In this document: one piece after another, positions 1 through 29,347 of the stretch | How the letters are laid out: every line of letters begins with the position of its first letter | How positions within the stretch are numbered: the stretch's first letter is position 1 | Virus record (IMG/VR): IMGVR_UViG_3300025889_000670 | Coordinates: 1 to 29,347 of that record | From: a virus | Reading direction: 5' to 3' (one strand) | DNA length: 29,347 nucleotides | Program-made: the position numbers and the translations under genes | The notes under the pieces: generated by a model | What the model saw: only the letters and a program-made list of their open reading frames with translations | Databases searched by the model: none | Told to the model about the DNA's origin: nothing

Positions 1-315
1 CTTCTACCTAATGTAGGGATAATTACTTCATCTCCACCAGGAATATTTTTAACAGGAGTGGCTGCAAAGAAATGTCCTATTTCCTTTTCACCTTCTGATA
101 AGTCACTATCTAATTGTTTATATTCGTATGTTCCAAATACATCACCAAAGTTTAATACTGTGTATTTGTTATTGGCTGCCTCATCATCCTCATCTCTAAA
201 TGTAATATATTTAGGTTGTTCGGATGCTGGGTGAACAATTTGGAATCGTTCTGTTCTATCTACTTTATCTGTCCAATCAATCTCATCACCAGCATTTATC
301 CAATCTTGGTATGGT
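1..315. repeat. Terminal direct repeat, left copy
   Basis: These bases recur at 29033-29347 with three differences, at 78 (T/G), 80 (T/C) and 207 (A/G). The repeat lies inside one long reading frame that continues across the join, so it marks a circular or circularly permuted genome cut at an arbitrary point by assembly. A physical terminal repeat is less likely. Two differences fall in one codon (ATA or GTC, Ile539 or Val539). The third is silent (Tyr496). The two ends therefore look like different strain variants, not sequencing noise. Confidence 0.95.
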
Positions 316-3059: not shown

Positions 3060-3551
3060 TTATCCTAATGTTGAATAATTTTGTTCTATATAATTTTCTA
3101 CATCCATAGCAAAAGCATTACCTATATTATTTGTATTTGACATAAATACTTGATTTAAGGATATTTCTATGAATGGTTTTGGTTTTTTGAATCGTTGTCC
3201 TTTCTTAGCAATGTTTCTTGCTATAGCCCAAGCGAATTGTTCTGTTGTGAATTTACCTGGGACATTGATTCGTTTTTGTCTAATCCAATCAGCAATTGCT
3301 CTAACAGGTGGCATTTTACCTGCTCCACGTTCAGCTCCATCATCAACCCATTTACCATATGTTTCCATAGTAATAGGTAAAACAAAGAAGTTATTAGTAT
3401 CCTGAAGAGATTGTGGAGTTATACTACGTGCTAAATTACCAGTTACAACAGAATTATTATCATATAATCTATCAACCATTTCCCCCTTAACGAGATTACC
3501 GATATCAGTTAACTCGAGTTCTAAGTTAGGGTATTGGATTGGTTGTATCAT
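3060..3551 (-). CDS. HK97 gp10-like tail completion / neck protein
   Basis: This is a 163-aa protein. The core GKWVDDGAERGAGKMPPVRA followed by IADWIRQKRI, then FAWAIARNIAKKG and a C-terminal KPFIEISL, matches the layout of HK97 gp10-like (tail completion, Neck) proteins: a residue run before PP, an I..W helix and a second helix carrying the R..IAKKG motif. Such proteins sit at the head-tail interface. The gene overlaps the upstream gene by one base (TAATG-type junction at 3551) and is followed after one base by the tail tip gene, so the three are translationally coupled. Membership of the general fold is fairly secure; the exact neck position is inferred. Confidence 0.7.
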   Translation of the reverse strand: MIQPIQYPNLELELTDIGNLVKGEMVDRLYDNNSVVTGNLARSITPQSLQDTNNFFVLPITMETYGKWVDDGAERGAGKMPPVRAIADWIRQKRINVPGKFTTEQFAWAIARNIAKKGQRFKKPKPFIEISLNQVFMSNTNNIGNAFAMDVENYIEQNYSTLG

Positions 3552-4012
3552 TATGGTAACTTAGGATAAGTGCAATAATTGTAAATACCTGCTTCTTGGA
3601 ATGTAATTTGTGAAACCCAACCATAAACTCTATCATTGAATGCCTCGTTTACAGGGGTTAATGTGTTCATCTGGATTGTCATCCAGTTAGTATTGTTTAC
3701 AGGACCATAATTCAAATATGATAATACATCATAAACATATTGTTCTGTTCTTGATTTTACTTGTAATGGTGAATCATCGCTCAATTTAGGAACATCAAGT
3801 GAATACAATTCAAATACTAATGTTCTTAGATTTGTTGTAATACCTGGTGATACTAATGGACGTAAAAATACGAATGGATATCTAATATTCTGGGAGTTAG
3901 AATCTAAGTAATCAATAGCACCCTCAGCAAACGATTGAATGGCAATATGCTCATTACATGCTTGCTGGAAATAACCAACTACTTGTTCGTATGTGTGAAT
4001 TGTAGTGTTCAT
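3551..4012 (-). CDS. Tail terminator-like protein
   Basis: This is a 153-aa protein. An N-terminal helix (TYEQVVGYFQQACNEH) is followed by beta strands with the segment IRYPFVFLRPL and FELYSLDVPK, then a second helix region (RTEQYVYDVLSYLNY). This helix-strand order and the conserved YPFVFLRP-like motif resemble tail terminator or minor tail proteins found next to gp10-like genes in Bacteroidota phages. It starts within the stop of the upstream gene (TAATG, one base shared at 4012) and shares one base with the next gene at 3551. The function is inferred from position between the chaperone and the tail completion gene. No catalytic residues are evident. Confidence 0.5.
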   Translation of the reverse strand: MNTTIHTYEQVVGYFQQACNEHIAIQSFAEGAIDYLDSNSQNIRYPFVFLRPLVSPGITTNLRTLVFELYSLDVPKLSDDSPLQVKSRTEQYVYDVLSYLNYGPVNNTNWMTIQMNTLTPVNEAFNDRVYGWVSQITFQEAGIYNYCTYPKLP

Positions 4013-4260
4013 TACTTATTCTTTTCTACTAATGCTTCTACATATGATCTATGCACCATATGTTGGTTACAGATTAGATTTATATTACGACCATTCTTCA
4101 TATCATTTAGAATCATTTTATCTTGTTTAGATAACGGTGATACAGAAGTTACCTTGGTTGCCTTTACTTTCTTATATTCTTCTTTTGCTTCCATATTTTG
4201 ATTACCAATTTTACCTAACTGGTCTGTATTGTCGTTCGAGTAGTTTTCGTCGTTGTTCAT
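4012..4260 (-). CDS. Small unknown protein in tail module
   Basis: This is an 82-aa acidic-to-basic protein with an Asn/Asp-rich N-terminus (MNNDENYSNDNTDQLGKIGN) and a Lys-rich middle. Its C-terminal helical part (SKQDKMILNDMKNGRNINLI, then CNQHMVHRSYVEALVEK) could form a helix-turn-helix-like fold, but this is speculative. The first 50 bases overlap the last codons of the -1 frame extension of the upstream gene (which ends at 4211), a compact arrangement typical of tail chaperone loci. I do not recognise a family. Confidence 0.65.
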   Translation of the reverse strand: MNNDENYSNDNTDQLGKIGNQNMEAKEEYKKVKATKVTSVSPLSKQDKMILNDMKNGRNINLICNQHMVHRSYVEALVEKNK

Positions 4261-5055
4261 CTCTATTATTTTTATCTTGTTCGTATGCTAAATAGTTTAA
4301 TACAAATACAAAGTTTAATTCAGGGATACTTGTGTCTCCTGTGATTGAAAGTATGGATGTTGAAGCGAGGTAATGAATTGTCGCAAACCAACCCCAATGT
4401 TCATTGAACCCATCTGTTGGGTCATCTCCTTCATCTTCATCGTCTGTTCTTTGGGGGGCAGAGAAGAGAGATTCGAACCGAGTAAGGAGGTGTTTGCGAG
4501 AACTAAAAAAAAACTCAATGCGCCTAATCCCATTACAGCTGGTAATACACCTAATTTCTCAGCTTGTTCAACTCGTTTACTACTATCATATTTTTCTAAT
4601 TCATAATACTTGAATAGGTTTTCAGCATCACCCATCTTTACCTTAAATGTGTTCTTAAATGCCCATTTGATACCATCGAATTTATGTTTTACGATTGGAC
4701 GATATAAAATAGCCATTATTTGTTCGAGGTTTTCATGCGGATTTTTTGATAGTCTCTCTAAGTCCACATACTCGCCCAATGTCATTTTAGATACGCTACT
4801 AAACCCGTATAATTGTCCATCCAATTCAAATACAGGATAGAACTGAGGGTTCAAATCACTGAACGTATCTAATATTTTAGCATATACACTTTGTATAGAT
4901 GCTGGTGTCCATTCCATAATTTCATCTTGTGATTTATCACTTAGAACTGAAATCATATGAATCATTTTTTCACTATCACTCAAATGCTCAAGTGAATTAA
5001 ACTGCTTCCATTGTTTAATAGATAAGTAGTCTGGTATATTTAGTTTAATTTCCAT
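4211..5055 (-). CDS. Tail assembly chaperone, long form made by -1 frameshift
   Basis: A -1 shift on T TTT TTA (4510-4504) would join codons 1-184 of the 5055 gene to 97 codons of the -1 frame, giving 281 aa and a stop at 4213-4211. The -1 frame is open throughout and reads as a normal protein: an acidic linker (QRTDDEDEGDDPTDG), then FNEHWGWFATIHYLASTSI and PELNFVFVLNYLAYEQDKNN, ending in a basic tail. The layout (conserved short protein, slippery site, overlapping second frame, near tail completion and tape measure genes) parallels gpG/gpGT of lambda and similar chaperones. The open frame and heptamer are seen; use of the shift is inferred. Without slippage the zero frame stops at 4315. Confidence 0.6.
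4315..5055 (-). CDS. Tail assembly chaperone-like protein, short form
   Basis: This is the 246-aa zero-frame product starting MEIKLNIPDYLSIKQWKQFN. The N-terminal part is helical. The middle (YPVFELDGQLYGFSSVSKMT, then GEYVDLERLSKNP) resembles the conserved region of an abundant family of Bacteroidota phage proteins located before tail genes. After Ser181-Phe-Phe-Leu184 the zero frame continues with a short hydrophobic stretch and a Met/Gln-rich tail (TMKMKEMTQQMGSMNIGVG). That tail is encoded by DNA that also carries the 97-codon -1 extension, so bases 4315-4504 may code in two frames. A tandem hairpin region lies upstream and a terminator precedes the gene. The chaperone role comes from position and the frameshift layout, not from a clear domain. 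Confidence 0.6.
   Translation of the reverse strand: MEIKLNIPDYLSIKQWKQFNSLEHLSDSEKMIHMISVLSDKSQDEIMEWTPASIQSVYAKILDTFSDLNPQFYPVFELDGQLYGFSSVSKMTLGEYVDLERLSKNPHENLEQIMAILYRPIVKHKFDGIKWAFKNTFKVKMGDAENLFKYYELEKYDSSKRVEQAEKLGVLPAVMGLGALSFFLVLANTSLLGSNLSSLPPKEQTMKMKEMTQQMGSMNIGVGLRQFITSLQHPYFQSQETQVSLN
4504..4510 (-). other. Slippery heptamer for -1 ribosomal frameshift
   Basis: On the minus strand the frame reads AGT TTT TTT TTA GTT, a run of nine T followed by A. T TTT TTA is a canonical X XXY YYZ heptamer, the same as the HIV-1 gag-pol site. It lies at codons 182-184 of the 5055 gene, exactly where an open 97-codon -1 frame becomes accessible. I see no convincing pseudoknot just downstream, only a 5-bp GTTCT/AGAAC complement. 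Confidence 0.6.
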
Positions 5056-8560: not shown

Positions 8561-8620
8561 CAGTAGAGGAACATATATAAAAAAAAACAAACAATGGCGC
8601 TATGGAAATAACCTCTACTG
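8561..8620 (-). terminator. Large stem-loop just after terminase stop
   Basis: CAGTAGAGG (8561-8569) pairs with CCTCTACTG (8612-8620), a perfect 9-bp stem around 42 bases that include nine T on the minus strand. The stem begins directly after the terminase stop codon. It adjoins the 10-bp hairpin, forming a tandem structure. Confidence 0.45.
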
Positions 8621-10890: not shown

Positions 10891-11442
10891 TTATTGTTTT
10901 TTTAGTATAGTTAGTCCGTTGTTATTTGTTTTGCGAATATCGATTTTCCATTCTGGATGTTCATTCATAAATTCTTCAATTGCTCTCCATAATCCATCAT
11001 GTCCAGCAGTTTCACCTCTTGTTTCAAATGTAGTTGTATCATGAAATCCTATATACGTAGATACTTTATCATGGTGTCTATCTAACTCAGCCTTACATTG
11101 TTCATATACGTGCCAAGTATCAATGAATAAGAAATCAGTTGGTTCGATTGTGATTTGTCTTGTATCACCAAGCTGGAATGTAAAATCAATATTTGCCTCG
11201 TCAGCATATTGTTTAGCTAACTTTAGATTATCACTACCACCCCATCTATCAGGATGTTGAATATCAATACTAACTAATGTAGTAGGTTTACCTGCTAAGA
11301 ATGCGAATGTAGATACTACACTACGTACACCCATTTCAGTAACGTGTTTTACTTTTTCTGTATATTGTTTTAGTACAGGTAAATGTTCATTGATGTCACT
11401 TGCTTTACTACATAATGAACTAAAGTGTTGTTCTTGTGTCAT
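10891..11442 (-). CDS. SAM-dependent methyltransferase-like protein (Methyltransf_24/CmcI type)
   Basis: This is a 183-aa protein with a Rossmann-like core: VTEMGVRSVVSTFAFLAG (motif I region, EMGVRS instead of the usual E-G-G), VSIDIQ after the second strand (acid for the SAM ribose), DTRQ with preceding FQLG, then FLFIDTWHVYEQCKAELDRH (the FIDTWHTYEQ pattern of this family) and YIGFHDTTTF. These features fit CmcI/Methyltransf_24-type enzymes acting on sugars or small molecules. The ATG overlaps the endonuclease stop by four bases. In a phage it could modify a glycan or a capsid or host component; the substrate is unknown. It follows a mobile nuclease gene and may have arrived with it. Confidence 0.6.
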   Translation of the reverse strand: MTQEQHFSSLCSKASDINEHLPVLKQYTEKVKHVTEMGVRSVVSTFAFLAGKPTTLVSIDIQHPDRWGGSDNLKLAKQYADEANIDFTFQLGDTRQITIEPTDFLFIDTWHVYEQCKAELDRHHDKVSTYIGFHDTTTFETRGETAGHDGLWRAIEEFMNEHPEWKIDIRKTNNNGLTILKKQ

Positions 11443-11936
11443 TTTTTGTTTTTATTTAGATTAGGTTGTAGTTCCTGAATCCAATGTGTTTCGCGTTCAA
11501 ATATCATCTCCTTATCACACGTTTCTAATACATCAAAGCTAAATGCTTCCCATCCTAACTCGTTTATCAATTTAGATAGGTTATGTTGTTTACCTCTACC
11601 TACGTTTCTCGCATGTTTATAGCGTCTATTACGCAGGTTAGATGAACAACCGACATACTTATCATCTGTCAAGAGACACTCGATTATATACACTCCAGCA
11701 ACAGGAGGTATCTTTTTAGTTTTATGATTACCAGGGTATCTATCTGGGTTTTCTTTATAGTATCGTTTCATATAGTAATAATGTGCTACTGGATCTTTCT
11801 CAATATGCTCCTGTGCTCGTTTATAGCTACAATCCCTACAATACGATTTTAGAATACCATTTTGTTTATCGCTGTAATGGAAATCCTCTAATGGACGTTC
11901 CACACCACAATCTTTACATTCTTTACTTGTTGACAT
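11439..11936 (-). CDS. GIY-YIG endonuclease with N-terminal zinc finger
   Basis: This is a 165-aa protein. The N-terminus has CKDCGVERPLEDFHYSDKQN and, later, YCRDCSYKRA, a Cys4 zinc ribbon often seen in phage HNH/GIY-YIG proteins. The C-terminal nuclease has GVYIIECLLTDDKYVGCSSN and LRNRRYKHAR, giving GVY, KYVG and the RR/KH region of the GIY-YIG fold, then a Glu in ERETHWIQELQP. The last two motifs match the catalytic Arg and Glu positions. It is a free-standing homing-type nuclease placed in the packaging region. No intron is visible around it. The start is a few bases into the upstream gene. Confidence 0.8.
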   Translation of the reverse strand: MSTSKECKDCGVERPLEDFHYSDKQNGILKSYCRDCSYKRAQEHIEKDPVAHYYYMKRYYKENPDRYPGNHKTKKIPPVAGVYIIECLLTDDKYVGCSSNLRNRRYKHARNVGRGKQHNLSKLINELGWEAFSFDVLETCDKEMIFERETHWIQELQPNLNKNKK

Positions 11937-16026: not shown

Positions 16027-18669
16027 TTAGCTAAAGTTTTTCAATCCTGTTGCTTGTAATGTTGTTCCGTCAAATGAAATAAATGTCATTACATCTACTT
16101 CTCCAGCACCTGTTGATACTGCGAATGCTGTTCCACCCTCAAACTCTACAGCTGCACTAAATGCGATTGTAGATGGAGTAGCGTTTTGTGTTATTTTCAC
16201 ATTGATTGTTTGTCCTGCCTGAATATTAGTAGGTGTCAATGTTGTTGAACCTCCAGCTGGCATTGTCAATGTAAAGAAGTTACCTAATGAACAATCCATT
16301 GTAGTTGTTCCTGCTGCATCAGCTAATGTATAAACACCTGCTGTTACTGAACCACTAATAGTTAGGTTTGGAACTACTACTTCATTGTCTTTACTTGTAG
16401 ATAACGCACTACCTCCTATGATTACACTATTGTTGTGACTATCAATAGTAGATGCGTTAGATGCGATAATATACGCGTTATTACTACCTGAAATATAGTT
16501 TAGGGCACCACCAATAACACCTTGGAGTGAACCACTATCTGTTTGTGAACCACTCGAGTTTAGTATTGTATTCCAAGATGTAAATGCACCTCCTGATATT
16601 GTTGTAGCACCGATTTGGTTGTCATAACCACCAATAATAATAGGTGTTCCGTTAGCACCGCTGTTAGATGTCCCTGTGCCTGTTCTACCAATTCTATTAC
16701 TTCGTCCACCAATAATACCTCCATATATTTCACGAGGATATCCGTTTGCAGCATCACCACCACCCCCACTAAAGTTTCGTATTGCATTTGATGAACCACC
16801 TAATATGAATGTGTTTTGAACTCCATTAGCCGAGATATTGTTGCTACCTCCACCTAATATAACAACACCAGCGTCATTACCACCATTGAATATATTAGAA
16901 CTTCCAGCAAAAATGCCAGAATAGGTTCCTCCATTCATATTATTTCCATTACCAGCTAATACAACGTTATAGTTTCCACTGATTTGGTTACTTTGTCCAC
17001 CACCAATAAAATGGTTATTACCACTACTAACAATGTTACTCGTACCACCACCAATAAAATTGAATCCACCACCTAATGTATTACCCTGTCCACCAGCAAT
17101 AGCACCTTTAGCTGAACTATTGGTAGATGAACCAGCACCTATAATAGCACCTCCATAACCACCAGATAATACGTTGTTTTCACCTGCTACAATACCACCG
17201 AATCTATAGTTGTTGATTTGGTTATTATATCCAGCAGCAACAATAGAATCACGTGATTCAACTGTTCCTACGATATCGTTTTGTTGTCCACCAATAATAG
17301 CTGCGTTGTATGTGTTAGCATTTGTGTTTGTAATATCGTTGTTTTCACCACCAATAACAACACTTCTAACAGCATTAGATACTATTGAACTACCTGTACC
17401 TGCTAAAATAGCTGACATTTGGGAGTTTACAATGTTATTTTCACCACCTAAAACAACACTACTATTACCAAGTGTTTGGTTAGATTGTCCAGCAAATAAT
17501 CCAGCGAATGTAGCACTAATAGTTCCACCATTAGAACCCATAATAACTGAACCATATGATGGAGAATTGATTGTGTTATTTTCTCCGTGAACAAATCCAC
17601 CATTAGCTGAACCATTATTGTTTCCTGTACCAAAAATAGTATTGGTATTACCTGCTGGTTTGTTTAATGTGTTTCCGTGTCCAACTTCTAATCCTGCAAA
17701 TTCATTGTATGAATCACTATTAACGTGGATATAACCACCTTTTAATGAAATATTAGCAGCTGTTGAACCAACATTAGTTACAGCGAGTGAACCACTGATT
17801 TCAGCTGAACCTGTATATGGGAATGGACTTACACCACCCTCTAAATATGATGCTGTAAGAGCGTATGAAGCTGATGTTGCTGTAGAGGCATTACCTAATA
17901 GTCCTGCTGATGCTGTAATAGCACCTAACAAATCAATACTACCTGTAGCAGTACTTCCTGCATCTAATACTTCTTGTAAAGGAATTGCTCCCACTACACT
18001 TGAACCTGAAATAACATATAATGTATTACTATCAGGGGTAGGTAAAGCACTATATTCTGCTTGTGTTAGGTATACAATATGATTGATTGCTTCACTTGCT
18101 GTTGGTGTAGTAAGGTTATCAATAACGTTACCACTAAATGAAGCACTATGTCTTAGGTATGAACCTGTTAAAATAATATCTACACCTGTTGCTACATTAC
18201 TATTATCTAATACTTCTTGTAATGTAGATGCACCTGCGTTTTCTGCGTATGACGCTGTAATAGCAAATGATGCTGTATCACTTAATACTGCGTGCGATGC
18301 TGATGTAGCTAATAAGGCTGTTGTAGCGAACGATGCTGATGTAGCACTAAAAGCAAAATCACTAATATCTGCGTGTGAAGCTGATGTTGCTGTAAATGCG
18401 AAATCACTTATTTCACTATGTGATGATGAAACTGCGTATGAAGCACTAACCACACTTTCAACATAGGATGCTGTTGTAGCTAAATCGGCTACTAATGCGT
18501 GTGATGCTGATGTGGAAGTTTGGGCATATGAAGCTGTTAGAGCATATGATGCTGTGACTTCCAAACTTGGAATCAAACTACCACTACCATCTGTAAGTTG
18601 TGAACCACTAATCTGGACTAAACCTTCATAGCTATCTTTAATATTTAATGGACCTAAGTTTCTTCCCAT
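16027..18669 (-). CDS. Long beta-roll tail fibre
   Basis: This is an 880-aa protein. The N-terminus MGRNLGPLNIKDSYEGLVQI matches the start of T4-like cyanophage fibre proteins. Residues 38-145 are tandem SASYA/TASYA repeats (for example TASYALTASYA, FTATSASHADISDFAF), likely a trimeric stalk. From about residue 325 to 690 come short repeats of the GSNN, GGENN and GGxSN type (VVLGGENNIVN, GIVAGENNVL), like YadA-type beta-roll heads. The C-terminal about 110 residues (TTTMDCSLGNFFTLTMPAGG) form a conserved beta cap. It is probably a trimer. It is preceded by the connector gene with one base between. Confidence 0.75.
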   Translation of the reverse strand: MGRNLGPLNIKDSYEGLVQISGSQLTDGSGSLIPSLEVTASYALTASYAQTSTSASHALVADLATTASYVESVVSASYAVSSSHSEISDFAFTATSASHADISDFAFSATSASFATTALLATSASHAVLSDTASFAITASYAENAGASTLQEVLDNSNVATGVDIILTGSYLRHSASFSGNVIDNLTTPTASEAINHIVYLTQAEYSALPTPDSNTLYVISGSSVVGAIPLQEVLDAGSTATGSIDLLGAITASAGLLGNASTATSASYALTASYLEGGVSPFPYTGSAEISGSLAVTNVGSTAANISLKGGYIHVNSDSYNEFAGLEVGHGNTLNKPAGNTNTIFGTGNNNGSANGGFVHGENNTINSPSYGSVIMGSNGGTISATFAGLFAGQSNQTLGNSSVVLGGENNIVNSQMSAILAGTGSSIVSNAVRSVVIGGENNDITNTNANTYNAAIIGGQQNDIVGTVESRDSIVAAGYNNQINNYRFGGIVAGENNVLSGGYGGAIIGAGSSTNSSAKGAIAGGQGNTLGGGFNFIGGGTSNIVSSGNNHFIGGGQSNQISGNYNVVLAGNGNNMNGGTYSGIFAGSSNIFNGGNDAGVVILGGGSNNISANGVQNTFILGGSSNAIRNFSGGGGDAANGYPREIYGGIIGGRSNRIGRTGTGTSNSGANGTPIIIGGYDNQIGATTISGGAFTSWNTILNSSGSQTDSGSLQGVIGGALNYISGSNNAYIIASNASTIDSHNNSVIIGGSALSTSKDNEVVVPNLTISGSVTAGVYTLADAAGTTTMDCSLGNFFTLTMPAGGSTTLTPTNIQAGQTINVKITQNATPSTIAFSAAVEFEGGTAFAVSTGAGEVDVMTFISFDGTTLQATGLKNFS
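18235..18558 (-). repeat. SASYA tandem repeats in fibre gene
   Basis: Codons 38-145 carry repeated SASHA, SASYA and TASYA units, including two near copies of ISDFAF-TATSASHAD. The DNA copies are diverged, with similar words such as GCGTGTGAAGCTGATGTTGC. They are likely to be recombination-prone in fibre evolution. Confidence 0.6.
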
Positions 18670-24838: not shown

Positions 24839-27103
24839 TTATCCTCCTAATCTTCTACGTCTACCAATTTGGCCGTATGCTTGGAGACCTAACGTTACAT
24901 CGCTTGCTAACACGTAAGCTCGCATAGGTTGCTCTGGTGCTACAATTCTTGGAGTTACACTTTGTGGTGCTAAGAAACCACCTGTTCCAAATTGTGGGTT
25001 TAATCCTCTTTGAGAAACAGGGGTTGATGCTACTGGATTAACTGGAGTATTAGTATCATTAAATGATGATGATTGAATATCTTGAATAGCTTTTTGTCCT
25101 GCTAATAATGCTGCTGATGCACCCGCAATAGCTAATACTTGTCCTACATAAGGAACACCAATCAATCCTTTATACGCCTCGAATGCTGCTTGAATACTTG
25201 TAATTCGTGTTTCAGCAATTCTATATTTTTTACCTTTTTCAAATCCTTCTTCATTGGATTCGTCAATATTTTCACTTAATGTTCTGGATAGGTTAGCTGC
25301 TATTTGTAATGTATTTGAAGTAGCTTCTCCTAAGTTACTTTCAAAGAAGTTTATTTGTTTAGTGATAGCATCATTAAAGTAATCTACCAACTCTGCTGAT
25401 TTGAATTTAATACCATCAAGTCCCTTACTAACTTTCTTTTCAAGTTCAGTTACATAAGGTAATTGTTTTAGAATGATATTAGTTCTCTCTTCAGCAACTT
25501 TATTACCATTCATAGAGAACATTATTTCCTCACTTAGTTCCTGATTACGTTTCTTAGTAGCAGCAGCTATGTTTATTAAAGCACGTTGGTAGCTTTCTAA
25601 TGCACTTGTTTGTTGATTAGTTAGTGTAGCATTTGAACTTGCTGCTGAATTACCTGCTAATAATTCATCTACATAAACTTCGAGTGAATTTGTAGCTATA
25701 CCAATTTGATTATTTAAGGATTGATATTCATCAGCTAATAATTTAGTTTGACCTACTTGGTCTTGACGTAATAAAGCTAATCGTGCTTCATTTTCACCAA
25801 TTTGAAATCCTTGTTTAGCAAATTCATCTTGAACTTCTTGGATAAGTTCTAATTGACGTGCATATGCTTCTGTAATTTTTTGTTCGATTGCTTTTGCCTT
25901 AGCACGACGTTCTATAGCAGCAATTTCTCTACCAACTGCTAATGTAATTTTATCAATAGCATCTGCTTGTCTTAAATCTAAACCAACAAGTTCTGGGACT
26001 AATTTTTGTAGTTCTTTTAATGCTTTGACTCTATCCTTTTGTTTTTGGTTATTATCAGTTACTACTTTAGTCAATAACTTTATTCTTGTTGTTTGTGAAG
26101 CAAGTGAATCAATTTGTTGTTTATTTAATCTAACATTTTCTACTAATAGGTGATTATAATTCTCTAATTCCTCATATGCTTTTTTACTTGATCCAATCCA
26201 ATTTACAAGGGCAGCAACAGCAGCTCCAATAGCAACAGCAATACCAACCCATCCTAATAGTGATATTTTTCGTGCTGCATCTAAAGCCTTATTAAGAGCT
26301 AATTCTAAACGTTGCATTATAGTTAGCTTTTCCCTGGCAACGGTTTCAGCTTCAATAGCAGCATTAGTAGATACCCTTACTAATCTGCCTTCAACCATTT
26401 TAGTTGTTTCTAAATCATAACCTAATATTGATGCTGCCCTCGCTTCTGTAACCTGATTTTGAATGGCATATTCTCTAATTTTAGAATCTATATCAGCATA
26501 AGTTGCTAATGTATTTTCAACTGTAGCTACTGTGTTTTCACCTTTAGCTACTGTAGCATTTCGTGTAGCACTTGCTTCAGTATTGATAGAAGTAGTAGCT
26601 GTAGAGTTAGCACCTGTAAGGATACCTGCTGTAGCAGCATTTGATTCAATAGCGGCTGTATTAGTATTTTCTACTACTGTAGATTCTCTTGTAATTTCAG
26701 TATATGCTTGTCTTGCCTCGGTAAGTGATTTATAACCATCAAATATTCTCTTGGCACCATCAGCAAACGAAATAGCACCTAATGCTAATGCTTCGAATTT
26801 TTCAGCATCTTCTTCTGATGCTATACCTAATGCTACTATACCACCTGCTAATACTTCAATACTACCACCAACCAAATTGATAGCACCATCTAATGTTTTG
26901 ATTCGTGCTTCTTGGCTTTTAAGGCTAAGTTCAACATTAGAAGCCGAAGTAGCTGTTTTATTAAGCTCTGTTTGGGTTTTGGATAGTTCCTTATTTAGGT
27001 TTTCTGTTGACTTATCTGCTGTATTTAACGCACCACTAAACTGGTTTACCTCTTGGGTAGCCTGTTGAGCGTTTAAGTCAATTTGTGCTTGTATCGTTTG
27101 CAT
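24839..27103 (-). CDS. Tail tape measure protein
   Basis: This is a 754-aa protein. The start (IQAQIDLNAQQATQEVNQFS, then GALNTADKSTENLNKELSKT) and a long helical, Asn/Thr/Ala-rich coiled coil are typical of tape measures. A transmembrane segment lies at about residues 282-304 (GWVGIAVAIGAAVAALV). A second hydrophobic stretch lies near the C-terminus (VGQVLAIAGASAALLAGQKA). The end has PEQPMRAYVLASDVTLG, the pattern QPxxAYVVxSDVT common at TMP ends. At about 0.15 nm per residue the tail would be about 110 nm (rule of thumb). It lies between the hub gene and the protease gene, with 8 and 18 bases between. Confidence 0.85.
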   Translation of the reverse strand: MQTIQAQIDLNAQQATQEVNQFSGALNTADKSTENLNKELSKTQTELNKTATSASNVELSLKSQEARIKTLDGAINLVGGSIEVLAGGIVALGIASEEDAEKFEALALGAISFADGAKRIFDGYKSLTEARQAYTEITRESTVVENTNTAAIESNAATAGILTGANSTATTSINTEASATRNATVAKGENTVATVENTLATYADIDSKIREYAIQNQVTEARAASILGYDLETTKMVEGRLVRVSTNAAIEAETVAREKLTIMQRLELALNKALDAARKISLLGWVGIAVAIGAAVAALVNWIGSSKKAYEELENYNHLLVENVRLNKQQIDSLASQTTRIKLLTKVVTDNNQKQKDRVKALKELQKLVPELVGLDLRQADAIDKITLAVGREIAAIERRAKAKAIEQKITEAYARQLELIQEVQDEFAKQGFQIGENEARLALLRQDQVGQTKLLADEYQSLNNQIGIATNSLEVYVDELLAGNSAASSNATLTNQQTSALESYQRALINIAAATKKRNQELSEEIMFSMNGNKVAEERTNIILKQLPYVTELEKKVSKGLDGIKFKSAELVDYFNDAITKQINFFESNLGEATSNTLQIAANLSRTLSENIDESNEEGFEKGKKYRIAETRITSIQAAFEAYKGLIGVPYVGQVLAIAGASAALLAGQKAIQDIQSSSFNDTNTPVNPVASTPVSQRGLNPQFGTGGFLAPQSVTPRIVAPEQPMRAYVLASDVTLGLQAYGQIGRRRRLGG

Positions 27104-27111
27104 TTTCTATA

Positions 27112-29347
27112 TTATCCTCTTGATTGTAAAATATACCATTGACTATTATATGCCATCAATGTATAGGCATCGTATGGGTCTCTAAACGTAATGTAGTTAG
27201 CACCTTCAATAGTTGTTGGGTTTATCAAACTACCTGTATCGTTATTTGCTACCTGAATATGAATATCTTTAGACGCACCTATAACCAGGTTACCTAAATC
27301 CTTAAATCTAATAGCCCTACCCTCTTGATTTTGATAATTATTTGAACCTGAAATAGATGGTAGATAAATAATACCAGCACCTGGACCTGTTCCTGCGTCT
27401 GAAAAGTTTACTACAAATGTGTAGTCATTAAAATACGCTGGTGATTGTAAATCAATACTACCTGTTTGTGATATGTTTAATAGTTTTGGTGTATAAAAAT
27501 ACGCCCCATCTAAATACAAATCGTCTGTAATAACACTACCATTTCTAAAGTTTGAACCATTTTGGTTTCGTCCAGATTGGGGACTATTTAATATTGTATG
27601 TCCTGAACCACTAACCCAAGTTTGATTTTGATTGTTAATGATTGTAGTAGTTTGGTTGTTATCACTAATACTATTTAATCCACCTATAGTAACGTTTCTT
27701 GACGTGGGACTATTGATGATATCATTTGCAGCACCGCCTACCATTACCGCTAACGAGGAAGCGCTTATACCCAATTCAAATCCACCAACTATCGTAGAAT
27801 CACTTGTAAATCCACCTACGTAGTTATTTGCGCCACCTAAGAATTGAACGTTTTTAGATGTATTTGTAGCTGAATGGTTTCTACCTAATGCTACAGAGTT
27901 ATTTGAACCAGCTTCAATATTGTTATTTTCACCTAATACTAATACGTTTTGTGTTTGGTTACCAATTGTATTATTGGAACCTGCCATCATTACGTTGTTA
28001 GTATTTGCGTCAACATTATTAGCACCAAATACTGTGCTATTAGATGGACCTTCAATTACAGCAGGACCTTGCCAAGATACAGATGCTGAATTATTAGTAT
28101 CAGCGAATACTGTAAATCCATCTGCATTAGCTGCTGAACCAACATAGGCATAATCACTAACAATATTTCCTGTAGCTGTGTTTATATAAGTCACTCTACC
28201 AGATGCATCAATACCTCCTACAGAAATATCAACTGGCTCACTACCAACTGGTTGGATTCGTCTACGTGGATATTTTAGTTCTAATGGGAATTGTTTGATT
28301 AACTCTACCTCAATAGAATCAGGATATGATAGGTTAGCACCATTTATCTTGTTGATTCTATAATAATGACCATCAATAAAATACTTATTGTTTAGTTGTA
28401 TATTTTTAATTTCGTATGGTTCTAATAATACATTACAAGTCAATTTACGAGCATCAACGTCATAAAGTGAATTGATATAAGTAGCCCAATATGTGTGGTA
28501 AGCATCTAATGTTGTTCTACCATTTTGAATTGGTTGGAAATATTGATACCAACCTGGATTATCTAAATTACCAAAGTGTAGATCACGTGAACCTGAAATA
28601 CTACCACTAAAATCAGTAGGTAAGTATTCAAATGGGGTCATTTGCACCCATTCACTTTCTCTATGTGTTACACCAAATTCATCTTGCATCCAGAATGTGC
28701 CTGGATATGTTCCATTTGAAGATGATGTAGGACAAATAGCAACCATTGATGCTACATAAGCGTTTGTTCCACCTGTTCTATTTACATCGCTACCTGCGAT
28801 AGCACATACATCTTCTGTTTGTAATGGGTCTACAAAAACTGATTGTGAAACATTATTACAATCAACGTATGAACCTGTAAATCCTATAAAAGCATCTTCG
28901 TTAACAACTGACCATAAGTAACATCCAACTCCCCCAGCATCAAATCCTTGTGCTGAACCCATTGTTTTCAAACCATTTTTGTATAATAATCTTGGTTTGA
29001 ATTTGAATGGACGAATTTGTCCTGTTTCATCTCTTCTACCTAATGTAGGGATAATTACTTCATCTCCACCAGGAATATTTTTAACAGGAGTGGCTGCAAA
29101 GAAATGTCCGACTTCCTTTTCACCTTCTGATAAGTCACTATCTAATTGTTTATATTCGTATGTTCCAAATACATCACCAAAGTTTAATACTGTGTATTTG
29201 TTATTGGCTGCCTCATCATCCTCATCTCTAAATGTAATGTATTTAGGTTGTTCGGATGCTGGGTGAACAATTTGGAATCGTTCTGTTCTATCTACTTTAT
29301 CTGTCCAATCAATCTCATCACCAGCATTTATCCAATCTTGGTATGGT
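27112..29347 (-). CDS. Baseplate hub / adhesin, C-terminal part (continues from base 1)
   Basis: This holds residues 565-1204 of the hub gene, plus the duplicated 315 bases of the terminal repeat (29033-29347). The frame from 29032 reads DETGQIRPFKFKPRLLYKNG, then LKTMGSAQGFDAGGVGC. The hub-like part (to about residue 850) has LLEPYEIKNIQLNNKYFIDG. From about residue 865 to 1055 there are beta-roll repeats (NNTIGNQTQNVLVLGENNNI, AGSNNSVALGRNHSATNTSK) typical of YadA-like trimeric adhesins. The last 150 residues are a C-terminal cap (IIYLPSISGSNNYQNQEGRA). A Met at 28971 is internal, not a start. Fusion of the hub and adhesin puts receptor binding on the tail tip. Confidence 0.75.
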   Translation of the reverse strand, partial: PYQDWINAGDEIDWTDKVDRTERFQIVHPASEQPKYITFRDEDDEAANNKYTVLNFGDVFGTYEYKQLDSDLSEGEKEVGHFFAATPVKNIPGGDEVIIPTLGRRDETGQIRPFKFKPRLLYKNGLKTMGSAQGFDAGGVGCYLWSVVNEDAFIGFTGSYVDCNNVSQSVFVDPLQTEDVCAIAGSDVNRTGGTNAYVASMVAICPTSSSNGTYPGTFWMQDEFGVTHRESEWVQMTPFEYLPTDFSGSISGSRDLHFGNLDNPGWYQYFQPIQNGRTTLDAYHTYWATYINSLYDVDARKLTCNVLLEPYEIKNIQLNNKYFIDGHYYRINKINGANLSYPDSIEVELIKQFPLELKYPRRRIQPVGSEPVDISVGGIDASGRVTYINTATGNIVSDYAYVGSAANADGFTVFADTNNSASVSWQGPAVIEGPSNSTVFGANNVDANTNNVMMAGSNNTIGNQTQNVLVLGENNNIEAGSNNSVALGRNHSATNTSKNVQFLGGANNYVGGFTSDSTIVGGFELGISASSLAVMVGGAANDIINSPTSRNVTIGGLNSISDNNQTTTIINNQNQTWVSGSGHTILNSPQSGRNQNGSNFRNGSVITDDLYLDGAYFYTPKLLNISQTGSIDLQSPAYFNDYTFVVNFSDAGTGPGAGIIYLPSISGSNNYQNQEGRAIRFKDLGNLVIGASKDIHIQVANNDTGSLINPTTIEGANYITFRDPYDAYTLMAYNSQWYILQSRG
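29033..29347. repeat. Terminal direct repeat, right copy
   Basis: This copy matches 1-315 except at 29110 (G), 29112 (C) and 29239 (G). It is duplicated sequence in the assembly, so one copy should be dropped when closing the circle. Confidence 0.95.

Follow-up and report, generated by a model that had tools for sequence, protein, structure and literature searches.

A conserved nine-T run and dual coding in a candidate tail assembly chaperone gene of a marine phage family

Introduction

Frameshifting in the tail assembly chaperone genes of phages is a textbook case of recoding, and it is taken to be ribosomal. In the gpG/gpGT pair of phage lambda, as well as in gp13/14 of HK97 and E/E' of P2, a short protein and a longer -1 frame protein have a common N terminus, and their coding sequence lies among the tail genes, 5′ to that of the tape measure protein. 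The stretch open in both frames after the slip measures 18 nt in lambda and 21 nt in P2. In lambda, gpG and gpGT are involved in the binding of the tape measure and of the tail subunits (PMC5009743), roles that are applied below by analogy only.

Two reading frames can also be joined during transcription. In dnaX from Thermus thermophilus (A9) and in mxiE from Shigella (U run), an A/T homopolymer connects the two frames by programmed transcriptional slippage. The length of such homopolymers is one at which slippage is selected against in many bacteria, A/T runs of length nine being counter-selected in a large proportion of bacterial genomes (PMC1088944). Both are cellular or plasmid genes, whereas the gene considered here belongs to a phage and its slippage is deduced from sequence comparisons.

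This gene was found in a stretch of 29,347 nucleotides of viral DNA (record IMGVR_UViG_3300025889_000670), hereafter called the window. Like lambda, HK97 and P2, it would specify a short protein and a -1 long protein with the same N terminus, in the vicinity of probable tail genes. It differs from lambda and P2 in three respects. The overlap of the two frames reaches about 190 nt with both frames constrained, the conserved element is a run of nine T's rather than a bare heptamer, and no sequence homology to the known systems is detectable. Leaving aside the choice of the slipping agent, we estimate at roughly four chances in five that the gene, in a marine phage family, yields two products through slippage on the nine-T run (T9).

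The run and the two reading frames

The zero-frame ORF is carried by the minus strand at 4315..5055 (ATG at 5055, stop TAA at 4317-4315), and its 246-aa translation would be the short, G-like form. Codons 181-184 read AGT TTT TTT TTA. They contain nine consecutive T's at 4513-4505 (minus strand; T1 at 4513 and T9 at 4505), and the next base is an A at 4504. The heptamer T TTT TTA at 4510-4504, in frame at codons 182-184, is present exactly as described in the initial annotation, which had nevertheless missed the length of the run. Three T's stand beyond what this heptamer needs, and it is T9 that is conserved. A slippery sequence is therefore available at the frame junction in the form of two overlapping in-frame heptamers, U_UUU_UUU (4513-4507) and U_UUU_UUA (4510-4504).

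The part shared by both frames, of about 183 residues (5055-4505, minus strand), has homologues in 322 loci. Past the run, the -1 frame opens an extension of 97 codons ending with TAA at 4213-4211 (4211..4504, minus strand). It is a candidate T-like domain with SSRK...HWGWF...LNYLAYEQDK as sequence landmarks. The -1-shifted product is 281 aa long, as computed earlier. The zero frame keeps 62 open codons beyond T9. As first noted, it stays open to 4315 and some 190 bases are open in two frames, the overlap downstream of T9 measuring about 187-190 bases. The dual-coded stretch, where the 62-codon zero-frame tail and the -1 extension share bases, covers 4318..4503 (minus strand). A one-base deletion in T9 would give a product stopping at residue 183. 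A second T9 is found on the minus strand at 8579-8587, just 3′ of the stop of the terminase ORF (8622) and outside the large ORFs.

From this organization, it can be proposed that unshifted reading would produce the 246-aa form with its 62-aa dual-coded tail, and that a slip on T9 would send a fraction of the products to the -1 frame, giving the 281-aa form with its conserved 97-aa domain. By reference to lambda, the short form would probably coat the tape measure protein, and recruitment of the tail-tube subunits would fall to the long form.

Conservation of the arrangement among relatives

Relatives were collected from viral contigs with protein patterns of the N-terminal part and of the extension, and not by means of the T run. 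Both parts were present in 322 loci, of which 132 non-redundant ones remained after clustering at 95% identity. These are mostly metagenome contigs, the non-independence of which is lessened, though not abolished, by the use of a tree and by the 95% clustering. Loci L030, L037 and L218 fall outside the two-part set, one of the two parts being without a match; L037 and L218 lack sequence at one side.

The -1 frame holds the extension in all 322 two-part loci, and hence in each of the 132 non-redundant ones. Exactly nine T's are found in 131 of the latter, a single relative (L167) having T10. The extension ranges from 94 to 109 codons, and the zero frame usually stops 62-70 codons past the run. 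Immediately 5′ of the run, 22 of the 132 relatives have a -1 stop, and the shift must therefore be placed at or after the run. Chance is excluded by the homology of the extension, and by its -1 frame, throughout the relatives; judged from these alignments, the -1 arrangement at the nine-T run is far from fortuitous.

Direct tblastn searches of named phages gave no convincing match, and no relatives were found in the bacterial genome contigs searched. A match to a structural protein of a T4-like cyanophage (E=0.7) was regarded as due to chance.

Selection on the nine-T run

Among 185 aligned codon columns (78 sequences), only three third positions are invariant, all of them inside the run; T1, T4 and T7 are invariant across the relatives. 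On a 127-tip tree, the third base of the codon that ends with T1 has not changed once, although the codon has switched between amino acids at least 35 times (Ser, Gly, Ala, Asn, Thr, Asp, Val). Other third positions show a median of 35 steps on the same tree, with a minimum of 12 outside the run. The tenth base, after T9, can be A, G or C and has changed at least 12 times.

The codon phase of the run is not fixed either. It is 2 in 129 relatives, 0 in three and 1 in the group of the Nonlabens phages, and the extension is always in the -1 frame. In the phase-0 relatives (L156, L158 and L189), the sequence reads TTG TTT TTT TTT ACG and the -1 extension is retained. In phase 1, represented by phages P12024S and P12024L and related contigs, CTT or GTT precedes TTT TTT TA, again with exactly nine T's. 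Two traits of transcriptional slippage genes are present at the locus. An A/T run nine or so bases long, or longer, is conserved where the two open frames meet, and it depends on neither phase nor flank, with three phases and A, G or C as tenth base. As far as alignments can tell, the nine-T run itself is the conserved, selected unit.

Elsewhere, long runs are avoided. Compared with synonymous shuffles, the coding regions of the 132 related loci are strongly depleted in A and T runs from a length of about 7-8 upwards, and this holds for every codon phase. When the genes other than this one are counted, T9 or longer runs are absent (0 versus about 3.5 expected) and A8 or longer runs number 12 versus about 66. 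Since the avoidance concerns all codon phases, polymerase or replication slippage is favoured as the cost of long runs, and the phase-blind pattern points to these processes rather than to a ribosomal one.

Dual coding downstream of the run

Of 126 relatives, 115 keep the zero frame free of stops over the 60 codons that follow the run, versus about 4 expected when synonymous codons of the -1 frame are resampled. In the same comparison, the +1 frame has a mean of 6.9 stops. Resampling values obtained sequence by sequence, which carry no correction for shared ancestry, are not read as probabilities. Substitutions were then considered by codon position, all positions being those of the zero frame. 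In the N-terminal part, the pairwise differences at positions 1, 2 and 3 are.294,.177 and.457 (mean, 19 close relatives), as for zero-frame coding. Past the zero-frame stop, they become.141,.382 and.180 (mean, 19 sequences), the signature of -1 coding only. Within the overlap, the intermediate values of.233,.328 and.291 (mean, 19 close relatives) correspond, at the sequence level, to the pattern expected from two constrained frames. On a tree of 127 sequences, neither frame is dominant in the first 33 codons past the run and the -1 frame is dominant in codons 33 to 62. The -1 frame being dominant only from codon 33, the zero-frame tail would be most constrained in its first half.

The comparative evidence therefore strongly supports the view that the dual coding of about 190 bases is genuine. 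The programmed -1 frame change with dual coding, at first proposed from the window alone, now has the strong backing of 132 relatives, of the stops and of the substitution pattern. Two of the checks that had been suggested for it were favourable, as the run and both frames recur in relatives and homologues of the extension are found in the -1 frame in viral contigs and, with a weak score, in a cultured phage. Taken together, the comparisons establish the conserved run, the -1 arrangement and coding in both frames. From them we infer that slippage occurs, as well as its agent and its rate.

Agent of the slippage

Homopolymers are prone to error in sequencing and in assembly, and the gene might in reality be a single uninterrupted frame. 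This explanation is refuted by the relatives, with the T9/-1 arrangement present in 132 non-redundant contigs and in the isolated phages P12024S and P12024L, and with a zero frame that is itself under constraint past the run. Reinitiation might instead yield the extension solely as an independent protein, T9 then being incidental, which would agree with the choice of the P12024S annotators, who gave the end of the extension its own gene, gp39. This reading is very improbable, considering that conservation of the -1 frame begins just past the run, where a conserved start codon is absent, and that selection on T9 is strict and at the nucleotide level. A ribosomal -1 shift at U_UUU_UUA, similar to that of P2 gene E, has more in its favour. 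The heptamer is perfect and in frame, P2 has T_TTT_TTG (TTTTTTG) where its -1 frameshift is annotated, and lambda-type chaperone frameshifting has been described as ribosomal (PMC5009743). We nevertheless consider this site unlikely. It makes no use of T1, yet T1 is invariant; T1-T3 would be unneeded and the tenth base should matter, yet this base varies freely among A, G and C; and the run has another codon phase in other relatives. Moreover, U_UUA and U_UUG tetramers hardly shift in Escherichia coli, even with a pseudoknot (PMC4066793). Finally, RNAalifold, the model of which does not include pseudoknots, found no conserved stimulatory structure downstream of the run, and single-sequence folds past the run were no better than those of shuffled sequences (z-scores of about 0 to +1.4). 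A conserved Shine-Dalgarno stimulator was considered and rejected, AGGAG being present upstream in only 42 of 132 relatives and the fourth base of AGGNG being variable. An unstimulated shift may still operate here, as in lambda, whose -1 shift is not known to require a stimulator. Overall, the heptamer T TTT TTA, to which the slip had initially been assigned, is not singled out by the relatives; slippage on the T9 homopolymer by RNA polymerase, or by the ribosome at U_UUU_UUU, fits better.

A ribosomal shift at U_UUU_UUU (T1-T7), one codon 5′ of U_UUU_UUA and with two phenylalanine tRNAs, is a possibility to be taken seriously, although we hold it only tentatively. It accounts for the invariance of T1, T4 and T7, and the heptamer is in frame within T9 in all three phases seen (T1-T7 in the window, T3-T9 and T2-T8 in the other phases). 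In E. coli, U_UU.U_UU.U and U_UU.U_UU.C are among the shift-prone motifs, and U_UUU_UUY motifs are efficient for shifting (PMC4066793). Such a shift requires seven T's, however, when exactly nine recur in three phases, and long T runs are avoided whatever the phase. In addition, T8 is always T though Leu codons elsewhere in the gene are often CTN, an observation that a Phe codon in the -1 frame could also explain. Ribosomal slippage as a whole, mainly at U_UUU_UUU, is accordingly given somewhat less than an even chance. Slippage of RNA polymerase on T9, by which a tenth U would be added to the transcript, is the agent that we prefer to the ribosome, and we put it at even odds. This mechanism would call for a run of about nine identical bases for which neither the codon phase nor the following base matters, and T9 fits this prediction. 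A slip by the polymerase or at U_UUU_UUU would lead to the same protein (...LSFFFSSRK...), and a slip at U_UUU_UUA to ...LSFFLSSRK.... The open-licence literature searched gave no report of a phage tail chaperone made through polymerase slippage, which is weak evidence of absence. The full picture, that of a chaperone family in which RNA polymerase would set the short:long ratio on a strict T9 and in which the short form would keep a dual-coded tail, comes just short of an even chance.

Neighbouring genes and identity of the gene

Downstream of the T9 gene and on the same strand, the ORF list gives an 82-aa ORF (4012..4260) with no weighty family match. It starts from an ATG within the final 16 codons of the -1 extension, the end of which is thus overlapped too. 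A 153-aa ORF (3551..4012, minus strand) occupies the place of a tail terminator, an assignment made from position and with no family match; in relatives L010 and L025, a similar ORF begins immediately 3′ of the gene. The following 163-aa ORF (3060..3551, minus strand) is tail-completion-like according to a weak PHROG match (phrog_5, tail completion or Neck1, E=0.018). A 754-aa protein (24839..27103, minus strand) resembles a tape measure by its coiled-coil and hydrophobic composition, judged by eye, and by weak matches to TMP_N (E=0.022) and to phrog_4211 (tape measure, E=0.089). On the circularised map, its gene is about 7 kb downstream of the chaperone-like gene. The tail-gene neighbours invoked in the initial annotation thus receive weak sequence support from the tail-completion profile, and their order resembles that of a cultured relative.

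The ends of the window (1-315 and 29033-29347) are 99% identical over 315 bases, which suggests that the genome is complete, with a length of about 29.0 kb, and has either a terminal repeat or a circular permutation. Elsewhere in the window, a 165-aa ORF (11439-11936) with GVYIIE...YVGCS motifs looks like a GIY-YIG endonuclease by eye. Two large ORFs (16027-18669 and 27112-28971) contain similar Asn/Gly-rich repeats of the GGxNNxI type and have the look of beta-helical fibres or spikes.

Searches of Pfam, PHROGs, NCBIfam and PDB sequences gave no weighty match of the T9 gene product to a known chaperone, but just weak scattered ones. The tail-chaperone identity proposed at first therefore agrees with position and architecture, and finds no counterpart in homology to a known chaperone family. 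From synteny and architecture, it is plausible that the T9 gene encodes a G/GT-like tail assembly chaperone. By analogy, it likely works as the G/GT pair does and belongs with the known chaperones.

Cultured homologues in Nonlabens phages

By their portal protein, the nearest named phages are the Nonlabens phages P12024S and P12024L. The profile of the N-terminal part matches P12024S gp38 (E=7e-6), and that of the extension matches the -1 frame at the end of gp38, weakly (E=0.005) and with a recognisable residue pattern. In P12024S (L329, NC_018271.1, 23136-23830) and in P12024L (L331, JQ823123.1), the T9/-1 arrangement is as in the window and the shift is unannotated. In P12024S, the last part of the extension was given a hypothetical gene of its own, gp39.

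The gp38/gp39 region of these phages (Inhavirus) therefore shares with the window a homologous N-terminal part, T9, a -1 extension and a similar gene order. It differs by the codon phase of the run, by a zero-frame tail of just about 17-26 codons, and by its annotation as two hypothetical proteins with no frameshift. In P12024S, the order is terminase, gp38, gp39, gp41, gp42 and gp44, with the 686-aa gp49 further along; from its size and place, gp49 is probably the tape measure protein. This order parallels the succession observed in the window, that is, the chaperone-like gene, the 153-aa ORF, the tail-completion-like ORF and, later, the tape-measure-like gene. The relationship with Nonlabens phages, together with portal matches to Bacteroides phages, suggests a Bacteroidota host.

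Implications

The family represented by the window adds a long, well-supported dual-coding stretch to the tail chaperone-like genes. The annotation of P12024S and P12024L needs a frameshift join, and both phages being cultured, the question of slippage is directly testable. The occurrence of T9 in three codon phases suggests that the ratio of the chaperone proteins may be set at transcription. Such a transcriptional setting would parallel the case of dnaX, in Thermus as compared to E. coli.
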